From NCBI GenBank assembly GCA_947381905.1, contig CANCXL010000001.1, positions 105,970-169,969 on the forward strand: a stretch of DNA of 64,000 nt. Reading direction: 5' to 3'. The first letter of the stretch is position 1. Each line of letters opens with the position of its first letter. Shown here piece after piece: positions 2,141 to 42,856 of the stretch. The stretch comes from an uncultured Clostridiaceae bacterium (lineage in GTDB: Bacteria > Bacillota > Clostridia > TANB77 > CAG-465). The notes below the pieces were generated by a model, which saw only the letters and a list, made by a program, of their open reading frames with translations, made no database searches and was not told where the DNA came from. Both the position numbers and the translations under genes were made by a program.

Positions 2141-3352
2141 ATGAATAGAAAAGTAGAAGATTACATCAAATCTATCTTTTCACAAAATCCTAGTGTAATA
2201 GCAAATCCTACATGCTATGTATATGATTTGGAAGAAATTACAAACAGGATTGGAGAGATAGAAAAGTATAAACTTAAGAATGTTTCGCTGTACTATGCAA
2301 TGAAGGCAAATCCAAACTTGGAAGTTTTGGAACATGTTTTGTCACATAAGATAATTGCTGGAATTGAAATTGCGTCAATTGGCGAGCTAGAAAAGGCAAG
2401 GAGTATTGGTCTTACAGATAATTCAAGAGTTCTTTTTACAGGTCCTGGAAAAACAGTTCAAGAACTTGAGGAAAGTGTAAAAAGTGGCTTAAGATTTATC
2501 AACGTAGAATCGGTGGTTGAAGCAATTCGTATAAATCAAATTGCCAAAAAGCTTGGCATAGAAAAAGTCAATGTGCTTTTAAGAGTAAATATTAATTACT
2601 TTTTAGATGGCGCAGAGGAATATATGGCAGGCAAATCTACGAAGATGGGAATTGATCAGGCAAGGTTTTATGAGGATTATGAGGTTATTTCAAAACTTAA
2701 TCATATTAATGTTTGTGGATTTCATGTATTTGCAGCGGATGGTGTTTTAGATTTTAATGTACTTCTTAGGTATACAGACTTTGTATTTAGGTTTGTAAAA
2801 GAGGCAGAAAAGACAGTAGGCATTGTGGATGTTATAGACTTTGGCGGAGGATTTGGTATAGATTATACAAAATCCGGAAAGTATTTTGATACGAAAGCGT
2901 ACTTTAAAGGCTTAAATGAACTGATAAAAAAATACTCTTTTGAAAATAAAGAGTTTATCCTCGAACTTGGAAAGTATATTGTGGGAAGCGCTGGATATTA
3001 TGCAACTCAAATTGTAGATATCAAGGACTGTAAAGGTATGAAGCATATCGTTACAGCAGGAGGCGTAAACCATATGAGACTACCAATTGCGACTGATAGA
3101 AAACATCCTGTATATATAGTAGAGATGGGAATTCCTAAACTCTATGATAAACAGACTGAAGTTTCAAATGAAACTGTAGATATAGAAGGTCCGTTATGTA
3201 TGACGGAAGATAAGATATCATGGGATGAATTCATTAAATCAGCTAAAATTGGAGATGTTGTTGTTTTGACTCAATCTGGCGCTTATTGCTATAGTGCATC
3301 TACGCTATGGTTTTTAAGTCATCAGATGCCACTAGAGTTAATAATTAAGTAA
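2141..3352 (+). CDS. Fold-type III PLP-dependent decarboxylase (DapDC/BtrK-like)
   Basis: About 403 residues with alanine-racemase-like barrel plus C-terminal beta domain. The PLP lysine sits in LYYAMKANPN near residue 57; GGGFGIDY binds the cofactor phosphate; GPLCMTED carries the catalytic Cys and GAYCYS the C-terminal signature of the meso-DAP/ornithine decarboxylase family. The EPGR motif of DapDC reads ELGK here, which points away from true diaminopimelate decarboxylase and toward BtrK-like acyl-carrier or polyamine-type relatives. I start at ATG 2141 because AGGAGG lies 7 nt upstream; a longer frame from 2117 lacks this. A nearby agmatinase-like gene would fit polyamine metabolism, but that is inference. 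Confidence 0.8.
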   Translation: MNRKVEDYIKSIFSQNPSVIANPTCYVYDLEEITNRIGEIEKYKLKNVSLYYAMKANPNLEVLEHVLSHKIIAGIEIASIGELEKARSIGLTDNSRVLFTGPGKTVQELEESVKSGLRFINVESVVEAIRINQIAKKLGIEKVNVLLRVNINYFLDGAEEYMAGKSTKMGIDQARFYEDYEVISKLNHINVCGFHVFAADGVLDFNVLLRYTDFVFRFVKEAEKTVGIVDVIDFGGGFGIDYTKSGKYFDTKAYFKGLNELIKKYSFENKEFILELGKYIVGSAGYYATQIVDIKDCKGMKHIVTAGGVNHMRLPIATDRKHPVYIVEMGIPKLYDKQTEVSNETVDIEGPLCMTEDKISWDEFIKSAKIGDVVVLTQSGAYCYSASTLWFLSHQMPLELIIK

Positions 3353-32983: not shown

Positions 32984-33775
32984 ATGAAAGAGAAATTAAA
33001 TGATGTAAGAGATTTAGTAAAAGGAATAAAAAAGGTTGAAAAAGAAAAGAAAAATGAACTTGAAAATGCAAAAAGAAATTATAAAAAAACAGTAAAATAT
33101 GTTGCTGCTACTATTGGAATAAGCATTGTAGCACTATTTTCAATTATGGCTCGTAATCCAAAGGATATTGTAACTCCTGCAGATATTCCAACATATCAAG
33201 AGGATGAAATCAAAAATGATGACGATTCTAAAGACGATAATTCAAATAAAGATGATATAGATGATAATGAAGTAGTACCAGAAGATTACGATGAAGGTAC
33301 TCAAACTAAAAAATATAATCCTACAACAACTATAGGAGAAGAAGAAAAAATGTCTCATGGAACAGCAATTGAAGATACACTATATAATGAATCAACTGTA
33401 ACAGATGGAAAAGATAGTTTTAAACCAGAAGTAGAGGATAATTCTCAAACAGTTGAGGCGCTAAAAAAAGCAGAAGAGAATAATATAAATGTTGTACAAG
33501 GTGATAAAAAAGATGAACATGGAAATTTGACAGGAGATACAATTACAGCAACTGAAGATCATACTAGTGGTACAAATGTAGACTTAGATTATGAAAAAGA
33601 GGATAAAACAGATAAAGGACAAATAAATGTTGAAAATAGTACTCCTGCAACACGTAGTGAAGATATGAATCAAGATAATTCTAAAGAGGATATTACTTCT
33701 ACATCAGATGATAGATTAGATGAACTTATGAATAAAACTAAAAAATCAATTGAAGATGACGGCTTTGAAAGATAA
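32984..33775 (+). CDS. Membrane-anchored modular protein A (shared module family)
   Basis: 263 residues. A basic cytoplasmic helix with KGIKKVEK (14-20) and NYKKTVK (32-38) leads into one membrane segment (~38-56). Outside lies an Asp/Lys/Thr-rich tail with a module at ~151-198 (VVQGDKKD...GNLTGD..TATEDHTSGT) and a C-terminal SDDRLDEL (241-248). The same blocks recur in the proteins at 34332 and 41591. No known domain recognised. Consensus promoter and ~70-nt leader. A cell-surface role is inferred from topology. Confidence 0.7.
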   Translation: MKEKLNDVRDLVKGIKKVEKEKKNELENAKRNYKKTVKYVAATIGISIVALFSIMARNPKDIVTPADIPTYQEDEIKNDDDSKDDNSNKDDIDDNEVVPEDYDEGTQTKKYNPTTTIGEEEKMSHGTAIEDTLYNESTVTDGKDSFKPEVEDNSQTVEALKKAEENNINVVQGDKKDEHGNLTGDTITATEDHTSGTNVDLDYEKEDKTDKGQINVENSTPATRSEDMNQDNSKEDITSTSDDRLDELMNKTKKSIEDDGFER

Positions 33776-33786
33776 TTAAATTATTT

Positions 33787-33824
33787 AATACCATTAGAGA
33801 TTTTATCTTTAATGGTATTTTTAT
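33787..33824 (+). terminator. Terminator of protein A gene
   Basis: Perfect 10-bp arms AATACCATTA (33787-33796) and complement (33810-33819), T-rich tail. The following stretch to 34007 is AT-rich with no gene but carries repeated ATGCC(A/T)AAA motifs. Confidence 0.88.
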
Positions 33825-34007
33825 ACATTTGTAAAAAATCTTTCTATCTATTAATATAATAGCAATTAAATTTATTTTGTAATATATTTGAGATTTGTAT
33901 TTTTATACAATATAAGATATAAGTATAATGAGATAATTTATTCCGTACATATAAATAATCAAATTATGCCAAAATAATATTAAAAATGCCTAAATTTTAC
34001 ATAATTA

Positions 34008-34036
34008 ATGACAAATATGCCAAAAAGTGGTATAAT
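34008..34036 (+). promoter_or_regulatory. Promoter of 34077-35147 operon
   Basis: ATGACA (34008-34013), 17-nt spacer, TATAAT (34031-34036). A TATGCCAAAA motif lies in the spacer. Confidence 0.82.
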
Positions 34037-34076
34037 AATATTATGAAAAGAAAATATAAATAAGGAGGTAATATTT

Positions 34077-34304
34077 ATGAAGAGTAGAAGAGAATTAGAA
34101 GAATTAAAAGAACAATTAGACAATGAAGAGATAACAGTTGATGATTTAGATGAAGAAACTCAAGAACAACTAATAGAGTTGTATAAAAAAGAGTTTTTAG
34201 AAACAAGAGATAATATCGAAATTATAAAAGAAGAAATTAAGATGTATGAGGAAAAAACAGAACAAGTTAAAGAGGCTCTAAAAGACTATATTAAAAAACA
34301 ATAA
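34077..34304 (+). CDS. Small acidic coiled-coil protein, unknown
   Basis: 75 residues, about 45 percent Glu/Lys/Asp, with two long amphipathic helices (ELEELKEQL and the IIKEEIKMYEEKTEQVKEAL stretch) and a short DDLDEETQEQ turn between. AAGGAGGT precedes the ATG. It lies 27 nt before anchored protein B on one transcript, so it may act at the cytoplasmic side of B. No family recognised. Confidence 0.65.
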   Translation: MKSRRELEELKEQLDNEEITVDDLDEETQEQLIELYKKEFLETRDNIEIIKEEIKMYEEKTEQVKEALKDYIKKQ

Positions 34305-34331
34305 TTTAAATATAGAAAGGGTGTGTAAATT

Positions 34332-35147
34332 ATGAGTGTTAAAGAAAAATTAGTTTCAATAATTGGAATGAATAAGGGTATTAAGAAAGTTGAACAAAAA
34401 AATCAACAATATTTAGAAGATGCTCAAAAGAATTATAAAGAGACTATAAAAAATGGTGCTAAAATATTAGGAGTTACTGCTATTACATTTCTTGCAATAG
34501 TTGCGGCTAGAGGACATAGTATTAAAGTACATGCCGTAAATGAAGTACAAGATAATAATCCTGTTGTAGAGCGCTCAAATGATGATATAGAGACATCTGA
34601 ACAAGCAGTTGAAAAAGTAGAAAAAGAATATAACATTAAAGTTGATACATCTAAAGGACAGGATTTAAAAGATGAAAAGAAAAATACTATAACTAAAGAG
34701 AATGTAGATAAAGGCGAAGTAAAAGTTGAGAAAGAAACACCAACTGAAGTTAAATATGTAGATAATAGCAAGGAAGAAGAAACTACTCAAAAAGCAGTAG
34801 AAAAAGCTAAAGAAGAAAAGGTAAATGTTGTACAAGGGGAAGTAAAAGATAAAAACGGAAACTCAACAGGAGAAAAAATTACAGCAACAGAAGGAAAAAC
34901 ATCTAATACTATTCAAAACAATACAGTAAAAACTCCTGAAAAAAATAACGTTTCAACACAAGCCCAAGAAAATAAAACAGAGAAGAAGAAAATAGATGTA
35001 AGTGGTGCTAAAGAAAGCAAATCTGTAAATAATAATACAAAGAGTGCAAAAGAGAGCACAATGTCAGATGAACAACTTCGTAAAATAGCTGGAGAAACTG
35101 AAAGTACAGCTAAAACTCAACCATCTAATAGTGAGTATTCAAGATAA
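34332..35147 (+). CDS. Membrane-anchored modular protein B (shared module family)
   Basis: 271 residues. Cytoplasmic KGIKKVEQ and NYKETIK blocks match protein A, followed by a membrane segment (~42-59). The external tail is Lys/Glu/Thr/Asn-rich, with the shared module at ~143-193 (VVQGEVKD..GNSTGEKITATEG), an IDVSGAKES block (221-229) also found in protein C, and a SDEQL end motif (245-249). GGGTGTG SD. Co-transcribed with the coiled-coil gene. No enzymatic motif; likely surface-exposed. Confidence 0.7.
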   Translation: MSVKEKLVSIIGMNKGIKKVEQKNQQYLEDAQKNYKETIKNGAKILGVTAITFLAIVAARGHSIKVHAVNEVQDNNPVVERSNDDIETSEQAVEKVEKEYNIKVDTSKGQDLKDEKKNTITKENVDKGEVKVEKETPTEVKYVDNSKEEETTQKAVEKAKEEKVNVVQGEVKDKNGNSTGEKITATEGKTSNTIQNNTVKTPEKNNVSTQAQENKTEKKKIDVSGAKESKSVNNNTKSAKESTMSDEQLRKIAGETESTAKTQPSNSEYSR

Positions 35148-35571: not shown

Positions 35572-35618
35572 TTACCACCTTTTAATAATTCTATGTTATA
35601 TATAGAGTGGGGTGGTAA
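35572..35618 (+). promoter_or_regulatory. RBS-sequestering hairpin candidate
   Basis: TTACCACC (35572-35579) is perfectly complementary to GGTGGTAA (35611-35618), which is the Shine-Dalgarno region of the gene at 35622. Pairing would hide the ribosome binding site. Confidence 0.5.
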
Positions 35619-35621
35619 ATA

Positions 35622-36644
35622 ATGAAAGAAAATATTGAAGATTACAGAAGAGATGGATTAATTAATTTAGACGAGTATTTAAAAAATAATCCATCAAATT
35701 TTACATATCCATATTATATTAATGGATATGATGAAAACAATTTTTGGACAAGAGTCGCAAAAGAGGATGAAGAAAAATTTATATATGTTAAACCAAGAAA
35801 TGGTGAGTATAAAGACATGCAATTTAATGTTTATTCTGAACTTGTATATGAAGAACTACTAAAACAAGTTGGAATAAAATGTGTATCTTTTGATATAGCA
35901 CAATATGATGGATGCTATACTACAATTTCTGAAAATATGTTAGATTCTTATCCACAAAATGAATTTATTATTAATAGTACAGAACTATTAGAAAGTAGAA
36001 AATATCCTAGTATGGTAAACGAATATGACATTGAAGACTTATATGACGCTATAGATGAATATTGCAGATGTGAATATATAGGAAATGATGTATCTAAGAA
36101 ATGTATTAGAGACATTCAAAAAACATTAGTTGCAGATATATTTGCTTTATCTACAGATAGAGATGTTAAAGACTATGATTTTATTGCTGGTATAGACTAT
36201 GATGGTGCCGAAGTGCTAGAACTTGCGCCACTTTGTCATAATACATATGCTTTAGGATCTAATTTTACAGATGATGAAATATATGAGATGCTAGATAATG
36301 AGGATATGCTTGCAGATAGACTGGACTATTGTCATTTTGATGCTGGAGTTCCAGAATATAAAAGAGACTATAATAATCCATATTGGGAAGATACATTATA
36401 TTACTTGATGGATGAAGATGAAGAAAATTATAGGTTTGCCAAAGAGTGTGCATATAGTATGGATATAGAAAAAGCAATATATAATGTTGAAAATAAAATA
36501 AACGCCAAAATTCCATCTACATATAAGTTGTTTATGGATGAGGTGTTTAAAAATAGACTTCAAAGAATATGTGAATGTATAGGTCTGGATTATTATAAGG
36601 TTATAGATAGTAAAGAATTGGAACAAGAAATGGAGGAGATATAA
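35622..36644 (+). CDS. HipA/CtkA-like kinase-fold protein with altered catalytic residues
   Basis: 340 residues, soluble. FIYVKPR (Lys57), YSELVYEEL (Glu73), DRDVKD (179-184) and LAPLCHN (201-207) line up with the HipA kinase elements: P-loop/Lys region, GNHDAHAKN catalytic loop and LTPAYD metal site. The catalytic Asp and following Lys are kept, but the metal-binding Asn is Asp and the final Asp is His, so activity is doubtful. Its start codon is preceded by GGGGTGG in a hairpin. It overlaps the next gene by 1 nt. HipA assignment is motif-based and tentative. Confidence 0.5.
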   Translation: MKENIEDYRRDGLINLDEYLKNNPSNFTYPYYINGYDENNFWTRVAKEDEEKFIYVKPRNGEYKDMQFNVYSELVYEELLKQVGIKCVSFDIAQYDGCYTTISENMLDSYPQNEFIINSTELLESRKYPSMVNEYDIEDLYDAIDEYCRCEYIGNDVSKKCIRDIQKTLVADIFALSTDRDVKDYDFIAGIDYDGAEVLELAPLCHNTYALGSNFTDDEIYEMLDNEDMLADRLDYCHFDAGVPEYKRDYNNPYWEDTLYYLMDEDEENYRFAKECAYSMDIEKAIYNVENKINAKIPSTYKLFMDEVFKNRLQRICECIGLDYYKVIDSKELEQEMEEI

Positions 36645-36976
36645 TGAATATAAATGTTTTATGGAATGATGTAGAGGTTCTTAATATTGAAAAAGTAAAT
36701 GGACTATATATATCACATGTGTTTACAGAAAATTTAGTTAAAGCGCAAAAAACTGGATTTCCTATTTATTTTTTAAAGCAAATTTGTACAGTGTCAGATG
36801 AGTTACCAGCATTTGTAAGAAATAGAATATACAATATAAAGAATGTAAAAGAAAAGATTGCTAATAATATAGATTTATCTGAAGAGGAAATAGAAAAAAA
36901 TATTTATGAATATATAAATGCAACAGGATGTAGAAGACCTACAGATAAATTTAGTATAAAGATAACTGTAAAATAA
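36644..36976 (+). CDS. HipA N-terminal-domain-like small protein
   Basis: 110 residues. An NVLWNDVEVLNIEKVNGLY start, an FTENL...AQKTGFPIYFL middle and SDELPAFVRNRI resemble the N-terminal subdomain of HipA (ending lP-ff-nLlPeG), here as a separate polypeptide. ATG overlaps the stop of the kinase-like gene (TAATG), so production is coupled one to one. A HipB-like DNA-binding antitoxin is not present nearby. Tentative; could also be an unrelated small family. Confidence 0.45.
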   Translation: MNINVLWNDVEVLNIEKVNGLYISHVFTENLVKAQKTGFPIYFLKQICTVSDELPAFVRNRIYNIKNVKEKIANNIDLSEEEIEKNIYEYINATGCRRPTDKFSIKITVK

Positions 36977-37029: not shown

Positions 37030-37293
37030 TATAAAAGCAATGATCAAGAGGAGTAAAATAGAGGTTGCTTTAAGAGAGAAAGACTCATAGGCTGAAAGGT
37101 CTTTTAAGTAAACATGTTTGAAGGTAGCTTGGGAGCTGGTATAGTGAAGTTATAAAATGTGTAGTTATACCCCGTTACAGTCGGTAAATCTGGAATAAAG
37201 AGCATGTAAAATATAGCGTTTACATGAATTAAGGTGGTACCGCGAATCACAGTCATTCGTCCTTAAATATTAAGGATGGATGACTGTTTTTTT
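37030..37293 (+). promoter_or_regulatory. T-box leader, valine specifier
   Basis: Stem I start GCAATGATCAAGAGGAGTA, the universal T-box AAGGTGGTACCGCG (37231-37244) and a downstream terminator are all present. The specifier appears to be GTA (37139-37141) in the context GGTATAGTGAA, matching valine. Uncharged tRNA-Val should stabilise the antiterminator and turn on valS. Confidence 0.95.
37249..37293 (+). terminator. T-box expression-platform terminator
   Basis: Arms starting ACAGTCAT (37249-37266) and complement (37270-37287) with a 3-nt loop, then seven T. Confidence 0.93.
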
Positions 37294-37542: not shown

Positions 37543-40164
37543 ATGGAAAATAATTTTAATTATTCTAAAAGAGAAGAAGAGATATATAATGATTGGGAAG
37601 AAAAAGGCTATTTTAAACCAAGTATGGATAAGACTAAAGAAAGCTATTGTATAATGATGCCACCTCCAAATGTAACAGGTAAGCTTCATATGGGACATGC
37701 ACTTGATGCGTCTATACAAGATTTTTTAATTAGATATAAAAGAATGCAAGGTTTTAACACTTTATGGGTTCCAGGAACAGACCATGCAGCTATTTCTACA
37801 GAGATGAAAGTTGTACAAAGCTTACGTGAAAAAGGAATTAAAAAATCTGATTTAACTCGTGAAGAATTTTTAGAAAAAGCATGGGATTGGACTAGACTTT
37901 ATGGTGGAACAATACAAAAACAACAAAGAAAAATGGGATGCTCTTGTGATTGGTCAAGAAGTCGTTTTACACTAGATGAAGGTCTTTCTAAAGCAGTTGA
38001 AACAGTATTTTTAAAACTTTATGATAAAGGATATATATATAAAGGCAAGAGAATGATAAACTGGTGCCCAAACTGTAAAACATCAATATCTGATGCAGAA
38101 GTTGAATATAAAGAAGAGGCATCACACATCTGGCATATTAAGTATCCAATTAAAGACTCAGACGAGTATTTAGTTGTTGCAACAACAAGACCAGAGACAA
38201 TGCTTGGAGACACAGGTGTTGCTGTAAATCCAAAAGATGATAGATTTAAACATTTAATTGGTAAAAAATGTATATTACCAATTATGAACAAAGAAATACC
38301 AATAATTGCAGATCCTTTTGTAGAAATGGAATTTGGAACAGGATGTGTTAAATTAACTCCTTGCCATGATCCTAATGATTATCAAGCAGGTATAAAAAAC
38401 AACTTAGAATTTGTTGAGGTATTTGATAGTAATTTAGTAATGAACGACTTAATTCCAGAAGTTGCTGGGATGAATGCATATGATGCAAGAAATGTTGTAG
38501 TAGATATGTTAAAAGAACAAGGATATCTATTAAAAATCGAAGACTATACACATAATGTTGCAAAATGTGAAAGATGTAAAACAACAATAGAGCCAACAAT
38601 TTCAGATCAATGGTTTGTAAAAATGGGTGAACTTGCAAAACCTGCAATAGAAGAAGTAAGAAATGGTAATATTAAATTTATACCAGCTAAATATGATAAA
38701 ACATATTTTAATTGGATGGAGAATTTACAAGATTGGTGTATATCTCGTCAACTTTATTGGGGACATAGAATACCAGCATATTATTGTGACGAGTGTGGAC
38801 AAATTCATGTTTCAAGCGAAGCACCAGAAAAATGTAGTAAATGTGGATGTGAGCATTTGACACAAGATCCAGATACTTTGGACACATGGTTTAGTTCTGC
38901 ACTATGGCCATTTTCAACTTTAGGTTGGCCAGAAGAAACAGAAGATTTGAAGACATTCTATCCAACAAATACATTAGTAACAGGATATGAAATTATATCA
39001 TTGTGGGTATCTAGAATGATATTCTCAGGTCTTGAATATGTTGGAAAGAAACCATTTTCAGATGTTATTATACATGGTATGGTAAGAGATGATCAAGGAA
39101 GAAAAATGAGTAAAACACTTGGAAATGGTGTTGATCCACTAGATGTTATAGAAAAATATGGTACAGATGCTTTAAGATTTTCACTTATACTTGGAATAAC
39201 TTTTGGAAATGATATAAGATATATACCAGCAAAAGTTGAGCAAGGCGCAAATTTTGAAAATAAGCTATGGAATGCATCAAAATTTGTAATTATGCATCTA
39301 GAGAAATATACTGGTAAATATGACTTAAATAAGCTTACATCAGAGGACAAATGGATACTTTCTAAAGTAAATAGACTTGCTAAAGAAATGGCTACAAATA
39401 TAGATAATTATGATTTAGGTGTAGCAACACAAAGGATTTATGATTTTATATGGAATGAGTTTTGTGATTGGTATATTGAGCTTGTTAAGACTCGTCTATA
39501 TGATGATAAATGTTCAACTTCACAAGAGGCAATGTTTACATTAAAAACTGTACTAGAATATAGTTTAAAGATGCTTCATCCAATTATGCCTTTTGTTACA
39601 GAAGAAATTTATACAACTCTAAATTCAAATAGCGAAAGTATAATGGTTTCTAGTTGGCCACAATATAAAGAAGAATTTAATTTTGAAAAAGATGAAAATG
39701 ACATTGAAATGCTAAAATCTATAATCACAGAGATAAGAAATATACGTAATAATATGAATGTTCATCCATCTAAAAAATCTAAATTAATATTTGTTACTCA
39801 AAAATATGACAAATTATTAGAAGATAGTAGAGCATTTATGGAAAGACTAGGATATGCTAACGAAATAGCAATACAAAAAGACAAAGATACAATTCCAGCA
39901 AATGCTATGTCAATTATGCAAAAAGATTTAGAATTATATATTCCTTTTGAGGACTTAGTAGACATTGAAGCTGAAATAGAAAGATTAAACAAAGAAAAAG
40001 ACACTGCAATGTCTGAACTTTCAAGAGCACAAGGTATGCTTTCTAATGAAAAATTTGTAAGTAAAGCTCCAGAAAAATTAATAGAGGCAGAAAAGGAAAA
40101 AGTTCAAAAATACACAGAAGTTATTGAAAAAATTGACAGCAGATTAAAAGAATTAAAAAAATAG
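37543..40164 (+). CDS. valS: Valyl-tRNA synthetase
   Basis: 873 residues. HIGH motif PPPNVTGKLHMGHALD near residue 45, editing domain with TTRPETMLGDT, two CxxC zinc-type pairs (CPNCKT and CDECG...CSKCG), KMSKS as KMSKTLGN near 526, anticodon-binding domain, and the C-terminal ValS arm coiled coil. Charges tRNA-Val. Preceded by a valine T-box, which independently supports the call. AAGGAG SD. Confidence 0.98.
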   Translation: MENNFNYSKREEEIYNDWEEKGYFKPSMDKTKESYCIMMPPPNVTGKLHMGHALDASIQDFLIRYKRMQGFNTLWVPGTDHAAISTEMKVVQSLREKGIKKSDLTREEFLEKAWDWTRLYGGTIQKQQRKMGCSCDWSRSRFTLDEGLSKAVETVFLKLYDKGYIYKGKRMINWCPNCKTSISDAEVEYKEEASHIWHIKYPIKDSDEYLVVATTRPETMLGDTGVAVNPKDDRFKHLIGKKCILPIMNKEIPIIADPFVEMEFGTGCVKLTPCHDPNDYQAGIKNNLEFVEVFDSNLVMNDLIPEVAGMNAYDARNVVVDMLKEQGYLLKIEDYTHNVAKCERCKTTIEPTISDQWFVKMGELAKPAIEEVRNGNIKFIPAKYDKTYFNWMENLQDWCISRQLYWGHRIPAYYCDECGQIHVSSEAPEKCSKCGCEHLTQDPDTLDTWFSSALWPFSTLGWPEETEDLKTFYPTNTLVTGYEIISLWVSRMIFSGLEYVGKKPFSDVIIHGMVRDDQGRKMSKTLGNGVDPLDVIEKYGTDALRFSLILGITFGNDIRYIPAKVEQGANFENKLWNASKFVIMHLEKYTGKYDLNKLTSEDKWILSKVNRLAKEMATNIDNYDLGVATQRIYDFIWNEFCDWYIELVKTRLYDDKCSTSQEAMFTLKTVLEYSLKMLHPIMPFVTEEIYTTLNSNSESIMVSSWPQYKEEFNFEKDENDIEMLKSIITEIRNIRNNMNVHPSKKSKLIFVTQKYDKLLEDSRAFMERLGYANEIAIQKDKDTIPANAMSIMQKDLELYIPFEDLVDIEAEIERLNKEKDTAMSELSRAQGMLSNEKFVSKAPEKLIEAEKEKVQKYTEVIEKIDSRLKELKK

Positions 40165-41590: not shown

Positions 41591-42856
41591 ATGAATTTAA
41601 TTTCAAAAATCAAAAAATCTTTGTTAGAGAACAAAGAAGTATCAATCGCTGCATTAGCAGCAGTATCTACTTGTGTAGGAAATATGGTATTAGGAGGAGA
41701 ATGCAAACTATTTGCAGCTAGTGTAATATTTGCTTTAATTGCAAACTTATTCCTATTTATCAAATGGACTAAACAAGAAGACTATACCGATAACGGTAGA
41801 AAGGTAGCAAAGTTTGCTAAATTCGTATTAGTTGCCATAGCTGTATTATTTGTAGCTTTTGGTTTTTACTGCAAAGCAACTAACCACAAACATTTTCAAC
41901 CAGAAGAAGCACAAACAATAACAACTGATGGTAATGAACCAGAAGGAAATGATCAAGAAGATCAAAACAACGATGAAAACAACAACGAAGGAAACACAAA
42001 TCAAGGTTCTAAACCTTACACTCCAGCTAAATGTCCTGAAGATGAGAAAATCTCAACAACTAAAACAATTACTGAAGAATCTAAAACTGAAACAAAAGTT
42101 ACAGTAGAAAATGAAGAACCAGTTAAAGTTGAAGTTGAAGATAACTCAAAAGAGGAAGAGATTACTCAAGAAGCAATCAAAAAAGCTGAAGAAAACAATA
42201 TTCCTGTAGTAGAAGGTGACGTTAAAGACGAAAATGGAAATTCTACTGGAGATAAAATTGTAGCTACAGAAGGTCATACATCTGGAACAGACTTAGATTT
42301 AAACACAAATAAAGATGAAGAACCAAAGAAAGTTACAAACAATGGAGACAGCAAAGTAGACGTTTCTCAAGCTAAACCAAGTCAAACAGTTAACAAAAAC
42401 GAAAATGTTGAATCAAATGAAACAGCATCTTCAGACGATAGACTAAACGAAATTTTTGGGGTAGAAGAAGATATCGTAACAGAAGAAAAAGTTGAAATTG
42501 AAACAACTCCAAACGATGTAACTGTTGTTGAACCAGAAACTAAGGAAGAACCAGTAATCGACAATGTTGCTACACAAGATGAAGTAAAAGAAGAAGTTGA
42601 AACAAAAGTTGAAGAAACTAAAAAAGCAGTTGAAGTTAAAGCAATTGATGGTTATGAAACTTACGTTAATTCTTCAGTACAATTCAAAATCAGTGGAGAC
42701 GTTGATTCAATCGATGGACTTGATGGTATTGATTACAGCTTCAGCAATGGAGTATTAACAATCAACACTGGTAGTGAAGCAACAACATTAAGTGTTGACG
42801 TAAACGGTGTAAACACAGTATCATTTGATGTAACAATCAATGGAATTGTAAAATAA
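41591..42856 (+). CDS. Membrane-anchored modular protein C (shared module family)
   Basis: 421 residues. Two hydrophobic hairpin segments (~18-58) and a third (~76-94) anchor it. The external part has an acidic Asn/Glu linker, a Thr/Lys/Val-rich stretch, the shared module (~182-233, VVEGDVKD..GNSTGDKIVATEG), VDVSQAKPS (256-264), SDDRLNEI (281-288) and a C-terminal beta-rich domain (~345-421). Codons such as AAC, ATC and GTT are visibly more frequent than in neighbours, which with two promoters suggests high expression. AAGGAGAATG SD. No known function. Confidence 0.72.
   Translation: MNLISKIKKSLLENKEVSIAALAAVSTCVGNMVLGGECKLFAASVIFALIANLFLFIKWTKQEDYTDNGRKVAKFAKFVLVAIAVLFVAFGFYCKATNHKHFQPEEAQTITTDGNEPEGNDQEDQNNDENNNEGNTNQGSKPYTPAKCPEDEKISTTKTITEESKTETKVTVENEEPVKVEVEDNSKEEEITQEAIKKAEENNIPVVEGDVKDENGNSTGDKIVATEGHTSGTDLDLNTNKDEEPKKVTNNGDSKVDVSQAKPSQTVNKNENVESNETASSDDRLNEIFGVEEDIVTEEKVEIETTPNDVTVVEPETKEEPVIDNVATQDEVKEEVETKVEETKKAVEVKAIDGYETYVNSSVQFKISGDVDSIDGLDGIDYSFSNGVLTINTGSEATTLSVDVNGVNTVSFDVTINGIVK

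Follow-up and report, generated by a model that had tools for sequence, protein, structure and literature searches.

The window, by which we mean the whole 64,000-nt stretch of DNA analysed here, belongs to a genome of 1.73 Mb that is 97% complete, and contains two adjacent genes, P0001 and P0002, preceded by two conserved, putative upstream signals.

35592..35601, forward strand: putative extended -10-like element TATGTTATAT, conserved in an alignment of 13 orthologue upstream regions.
35609..35615, forward strand: Shine-Dalgarno-like GGGGTGG, kept as G(G/A)GGTG in the alignment of 13 upstream regions.
35622..36644, forward strand: P0001, predicted degenerate HipA/CtkA-type kinase (pseudokinase), 340 aa, assigned from its ORF, orthologues, AlphaFold model with fold match, residues and dN/dS.
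36644..36976, forward strand: P0002, putative HipS-like partner (S1 of the pseudokinase), 110 aa, assigned from its ORF, model with fold match and S1 family tree.
Sites within P0001: Gly loop at residues 35-42; Lys57; catalytic loop at 176-190 (D179, D184, D186); former metal site H206.

The stop codon of P0001 and the start codon of P0002 share one nucleotide (TAATG), and both ORFs lie where a prior reading of the bare DNA letters (hereafter, the sequence-only reading) had placed a kinase-like gene and a separate small gene overlapping it by 1 nt. Judged by sequence comparison, the two frames are real genes and not chance ORFs, because an alignment of 13 sequences of 51-65% protein identity retains both, at a dN/dS far below 1. 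The TATGTTATAT element does not appear in the list returned by a consensus promoter scan; we infer a promoter function for it. A hairpin formed by TTACCACC and GGTGGTAA, considered as a means of sequestering the ribosome-binding site upstream of P0001, was rejected, as the alignment shows the conserved -10-like element directly before the Shine-Dalgarno-like sequence instead, which probably leaves the upstream arm of the hairpin outside the transcript.

Upstream, the window encodes, in this order, MetG, a signal peptidase, a DNA polymerase III delta-subunit-type protein, PSP1, a ferredoxin and three Pfam-less proteins, and the gene pair is followed by a T-box leader (37031-37267), a 72-aa ORF and ValS. 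The leader matches RF00230 (123.6 bits), spans 37031-37287 together with its terminator, and precedes the 72-aa ORF and valS. The neighbours that were compared with Pfam yielded no helix-turn-helix (HTH) or other DNA-binding gene, in keeping with the earlier remark that no DNA-binding antitoxin is seen. The same locus occurs in metagenome-assembled genomes (MAGs) labelled uncultured Clostridia, several of which come from the animal gut. The three proteins without significant Pfam match (263, 75 and 271 aa) occupy 32984-35147, after the ferredoxin gene and before the pseudokinase; the 75- and 271-aa proteins have relatives elsewhere in the window (41591-42856) and near valS at locus L039, and the 75-aa protein has further ones at L037 and L040. 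The window's ValS (37543-40164) is 83% identical to those of genomes G004, G016 and G026, whereas the other pseudokinase genomes carry a ValS of about 57% identity at the corresponding place, and this split between four genomes and the rest suggests a replacement of ValS. The same three genomes, out of the four sharing the window's type of ValS, are the only ones in which the pseudokinase has lost Asp179.

P0001 has no Pfam match at E<=10 and no NCBIfam match, and a PF07804 (HipA_C) search of the window's own genome misses it. It is homologous to kinases that match HipA_C, this domain being matched by 16/16 relatives. Its AlphaFold model (pLDDT 88, pTM 0.89) aligns over 280 residues with CtkA (Z 23.1), and with HipA and HipT at Z 14-18. 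Structure prediction, on which the sequence-only reading had made its kinase-fold claim depend, thus gave a kinase fold, and the assignment of P0001 to the HipA/CtkA kinase fold is, at the level of a predicted model, well supported. The model of P0002 (pLDDT 86) has the HipS proteins of E. coli and Legionella as its best matches (Z 6.0 over 94-95 residues) and also resembles HipA N-subdomain-1; a Z of 6 is modest by itself, yet the top 19 entries of the fold comparison are all HipS or HipA. By Foldseek alone the match is weak (E 0.07). The earlier proposal that the small protein is HipA-N-domain-like is therefore upheld by fold comparison but not by Pfam, and sequence searches of the PDB with pseudokinase and small-protein profiles gave chance-level matches only.

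The replacement of catalytic residues was assessed by comparing 13 pseudokinase orthologues with 22 active relatives. In P0001, the segment STDRDVKDYDF contains D179, K183 and D184, the last occupying a position that is Asn in 22/22 active relatives, and the segment APLCHNTY contains H206, where all 22 carry Asp. Both substitutions had been pointed out from the sequence, correctly, and they proved to be clade-wide: the catalytic Asn is Asp184 in 13/13 orthologues, and the metal-site Asp at 206 is replaced by His or Ser in 13/13 (His in 12). Further fixed changes, not named by the sequence-only reading, affect the Gly-loop Lys (Asn40 in 13/13) and two glutamates (Thr208 and Tyr31, each in 12/13). 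The statement that the protein keeps the catalytic-loop Asp and Lys applies to P0001 itself but not to the clade, in which Asp179 is retained in 10/13 orthologues (Asn in G016 and G026, Ala in G004) and Lys183 varies freely. The clade thus lacks the HipA-type set of catalytic Asp/Asn and metal-binding Asp (184 and 206 changed in 13/13, D179 lost in 3/13). Considering the clade-wide replacements, the loss of Asp179 in three orthologues and the freedom of Lys183 to vary, ordinary kinase activity has likely been lost in this clade.

The gene has nevertheless been kept. In three close pairs, the kinase has a dN/dS of 0.06-0.10 and S1 one of 0.08-0.12. The cleft, taken as four segments, has a mean entropy of 0.50 versus 0.97 for the whole protein, a value as low in 1 of 339 circular shifts and obtained with or without the variable residues 181-183; it is the most conserved part of the pseudokinase. 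Within the genus, 14/14 genomes of one subclade, defined by a PSP1 at least 79% identical to that of the window, carry the gene, as against 0/14 of the others, and it is absent from the remaining 371 of the 385 searched genomes of the order. Its chromosomal site, between metG and valS, is fixed. In one genome (G020; L014 1492-2517), from a MAG that is 77% complete, the frame is split by a single stop into 218 and 119 aa, by mutation or assembly error, and in the other 13 it is open. A mobile or phage origin of the pair was considered and set aside: tblastn with an active relative returned no relative in phages or plasmids, and pattern scans of viral contigs with both kinase profiles likewise none, both searches reaching moderate distance only.

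Among known systems, the closest in layout are the hipJS modules, in which a short kinase comes first, HipS lies downstream and no HTH gene is present (Gerdes et al. 2021, PMC8262856). P0001 is likewise short, lacks N-subdomain-1, comes first and is followed by a HipS-like gene, with no HTH gene among the neighbours tested, and this layout also fits its active paralogues. The kinase-first order and missing HipB, which the sequence-only reading had treated as oddities, are therefore present here but not new, having been described for hipJS in 2021 (PMC8262856). Unlike P0001, the published HipJ kinases keep four kinase motifs, and the active modules found here differ from hipJS in carrying two HipS-like genes, S1 and S2. 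With HipBST of E. coli O127 and Legionella the locus shares a kinase core and a separately encoded HipA N-subdomain-1-like protein, with matching folds, but HipBST has the order B-S-T, whereas here HipB is missing, the small gene lies downstream of the kinase and the catalytic residues are replaced. CtkA of Helicobacter pylori, the closest solved fold to P0001, is only 15% identical to it, and P0001 differs further in lacking the catalytic residues and in being paired with a HipS-like protein. P0001 also matches PDC-M03A of the phage-defence candidate PDC-M03 in PADLOC (E 4.9e-13); the match of P0002 to PDC-M03B is weak (E 0.021), with 245 positions in the latter versus 110 aa. The literature searched gave no case of a pseudokinase of HipA type in the context of a toxin-antitoxin system; as far as our searches reach, what appears to be new is a pseudokinase that occurs throughout a clade, where it is fixed together with a HipS-like partner of its own.

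The distribution of active relatives points to the origin of the pair. Five genomes (G003, G005, G014, G020 and G025) have an active kinase and its S1 immediately before the pseudokinase, with S2 as well in all but G005; in the window's genome, an active kinase-S1-S2 module resides on another contig (L002; kinase at 1336-2340, S1 at 2350-2664, S2 at 2768-3013). In the sister subclade, such a module occupies the pseudokinase's site in G008 and G010, and no kinase is found at that site in G013, G021 and G023. The kinase and S1 families each divide, in parallel, into an active and a pseudokinase group, and a HipS-type S2 follows 23/24 active kinases (the exception being the G005 locus) versus 0/14 degenerate ones, the latter comprising 13 pseudokinases with downstream sequence plus a kinase of G009, although these counts are not phylogenetically independent. 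The simplest account, drawn from these comparisons, would be a duplication of a kinase-S1-S2 module, after which one copy lost both catalysis and S2.

Several loci show related arrangements. The G009 kinase (L024 1465-2789), located at a different site, is a second degenerate kinase, with the motifs SNRDSTNF and PLYANG; it has an S1 partner but no S2. It was considered as a possible case of independent loss of catalysis. Its S1 clusters with the S1 of the active G008 kinase (97/94), but the kinase tree places the kinase itself weakly with the pseudokinases, and an AU test disfavours a grouping with the G008-type kinases (p 0.035). In G012 (L004 449-1369), the active kinase has disappeared, but S1 and S2 still precede the pseudokinase, resembling orphan antitoxins. 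Two CtkA-like HipA_C kinases that stand alone, one in G024 (L081 2805-3662) and one on contig C2 of the window's genome (L088 1465-2487), have intact motifs (DRHNGNWGF and DRHGGNWGF); the former occupies the pseudokinase's chromosomal site.

Taken together, the folds, the residue replacement, purifying selection, the fixed site and the parallel divergence of kinase and S1 are supported by sequence comparison and predicted structures. The explanation that we consider best, and to which we give roughly an even chance, is that a HipA/CtkA-type kinase with degenerate catalytic residues and the HipS-like protein dedicated to it, an old duplicate of a hipJS-type module, were domesticated as a core gene of the subclade and act by binding. 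The pseudokinase module envisaged by the sequence-only reading is accordingly well backed by the kinase fold, the HipS fold of the partner and a clade-wide catalytic replacement under purifying selection. P0001 and P0002 would form a complex that no longer phosphorylates a target. In E. coli, HipS blocks HipT by a tryptophan wedged at the Gly-rich loop (PMC10627512), and a P-loop shift was reported for Legionella (PMC9325769); by analogy with HipS-HipT, the pseudokinase cleft may be where S1 docks. Since catalysis has probably been lost, what selection maintains in the cleft would be binding or an altered reaction, and the conserved cleft may still bind a ligand, a nucleotide or a protein. The pair would then most likely compete with or restrain the cell's own active Hip kinases, as a decoy or trans-antitoxin, with S1 as the partner of the pseudokinase and S2 as the true antitoxin, of active kinases only. 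That such control in trans, by an antitoxin or decoy fixed in the whole subclade, is what the pair actually does remains a tentative proposal and may well be wrong. It is favoured by the presence of a closely related active kinase in 13/14 pseudokinase genomes, but dependence on an active paralogue is weakened by G012, which lacks a close one, and by the active kinases belonging to differing subfamilies and being unlinked to the pseudokinase in eight genomes.

A rather unlikely alternative is that the pair is a housekeeping regulator outside toxin control, binding a translation component such as a tRNA synthetase, possibly the neighbouring ValS, and tuning it without phosphorylation. This would suit a fixed core gene at a single site between metG and valS, and tRNA synthetases are the targets of characterised Hip kinases (PMC8262856); however, the neighbourhood is weak evidence by itself, several genomes have valS on the other strand, and the same pseudokinase clade occurs with two ValS types. 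It seems quite improbable that the cleft (D184, D186, H206, K57) was rebuilt for another reaction, for example, nucleotide transfer rather than phosphate transfer. The pocket residues D184, D186, R180, N207 and K57 are invariant in the 13 orthologues in spite of the changes at the standard positions, but ligand or partner binding can also explain this invariance, and G004 lacks both H206 and D179, the latter being missing from G016 and G026, too. It is highly doubtful that P0001 is a diverged toxin kinase that has stayed active and that P0002 neutralises, as in a hipJS-type toxin-antitoxin pair. The operon layout, the coupled genes, the HipS fold of the partner and the retention of D179 in most orthologues would fit it; yet the catalytic Asn, the metal Asp and the Gly-loop Lys are all replaced, S2 is missing, and the fixed, core distribution is unlike that of a mobile toxin-antitoxin module. 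The earlier "variant toxin" suggestion has no support. Finally, that the pair is a decaying remnant of such a module is hardly credible, the single stop in G020 being outweighed by 13 genomes with open frames, low dN/dS, a conserved cleft and presence throughout the subclade.

Hip kinases have been studied as toxins, which halt translation and bring about persistence. If the domesticated pseudokinase acting by binding is indeed what this locus encodes, a Hip-type module with a dead kinase has been made a core gene, which would mean that such modules can be converted into something that the cell keeps. The association of S1 with dead kinases versus that of S2 with active ones suggests a division of labour, and the pair would offer a natural test of the roles that HipS-like proteins may have besides kinase blocking.
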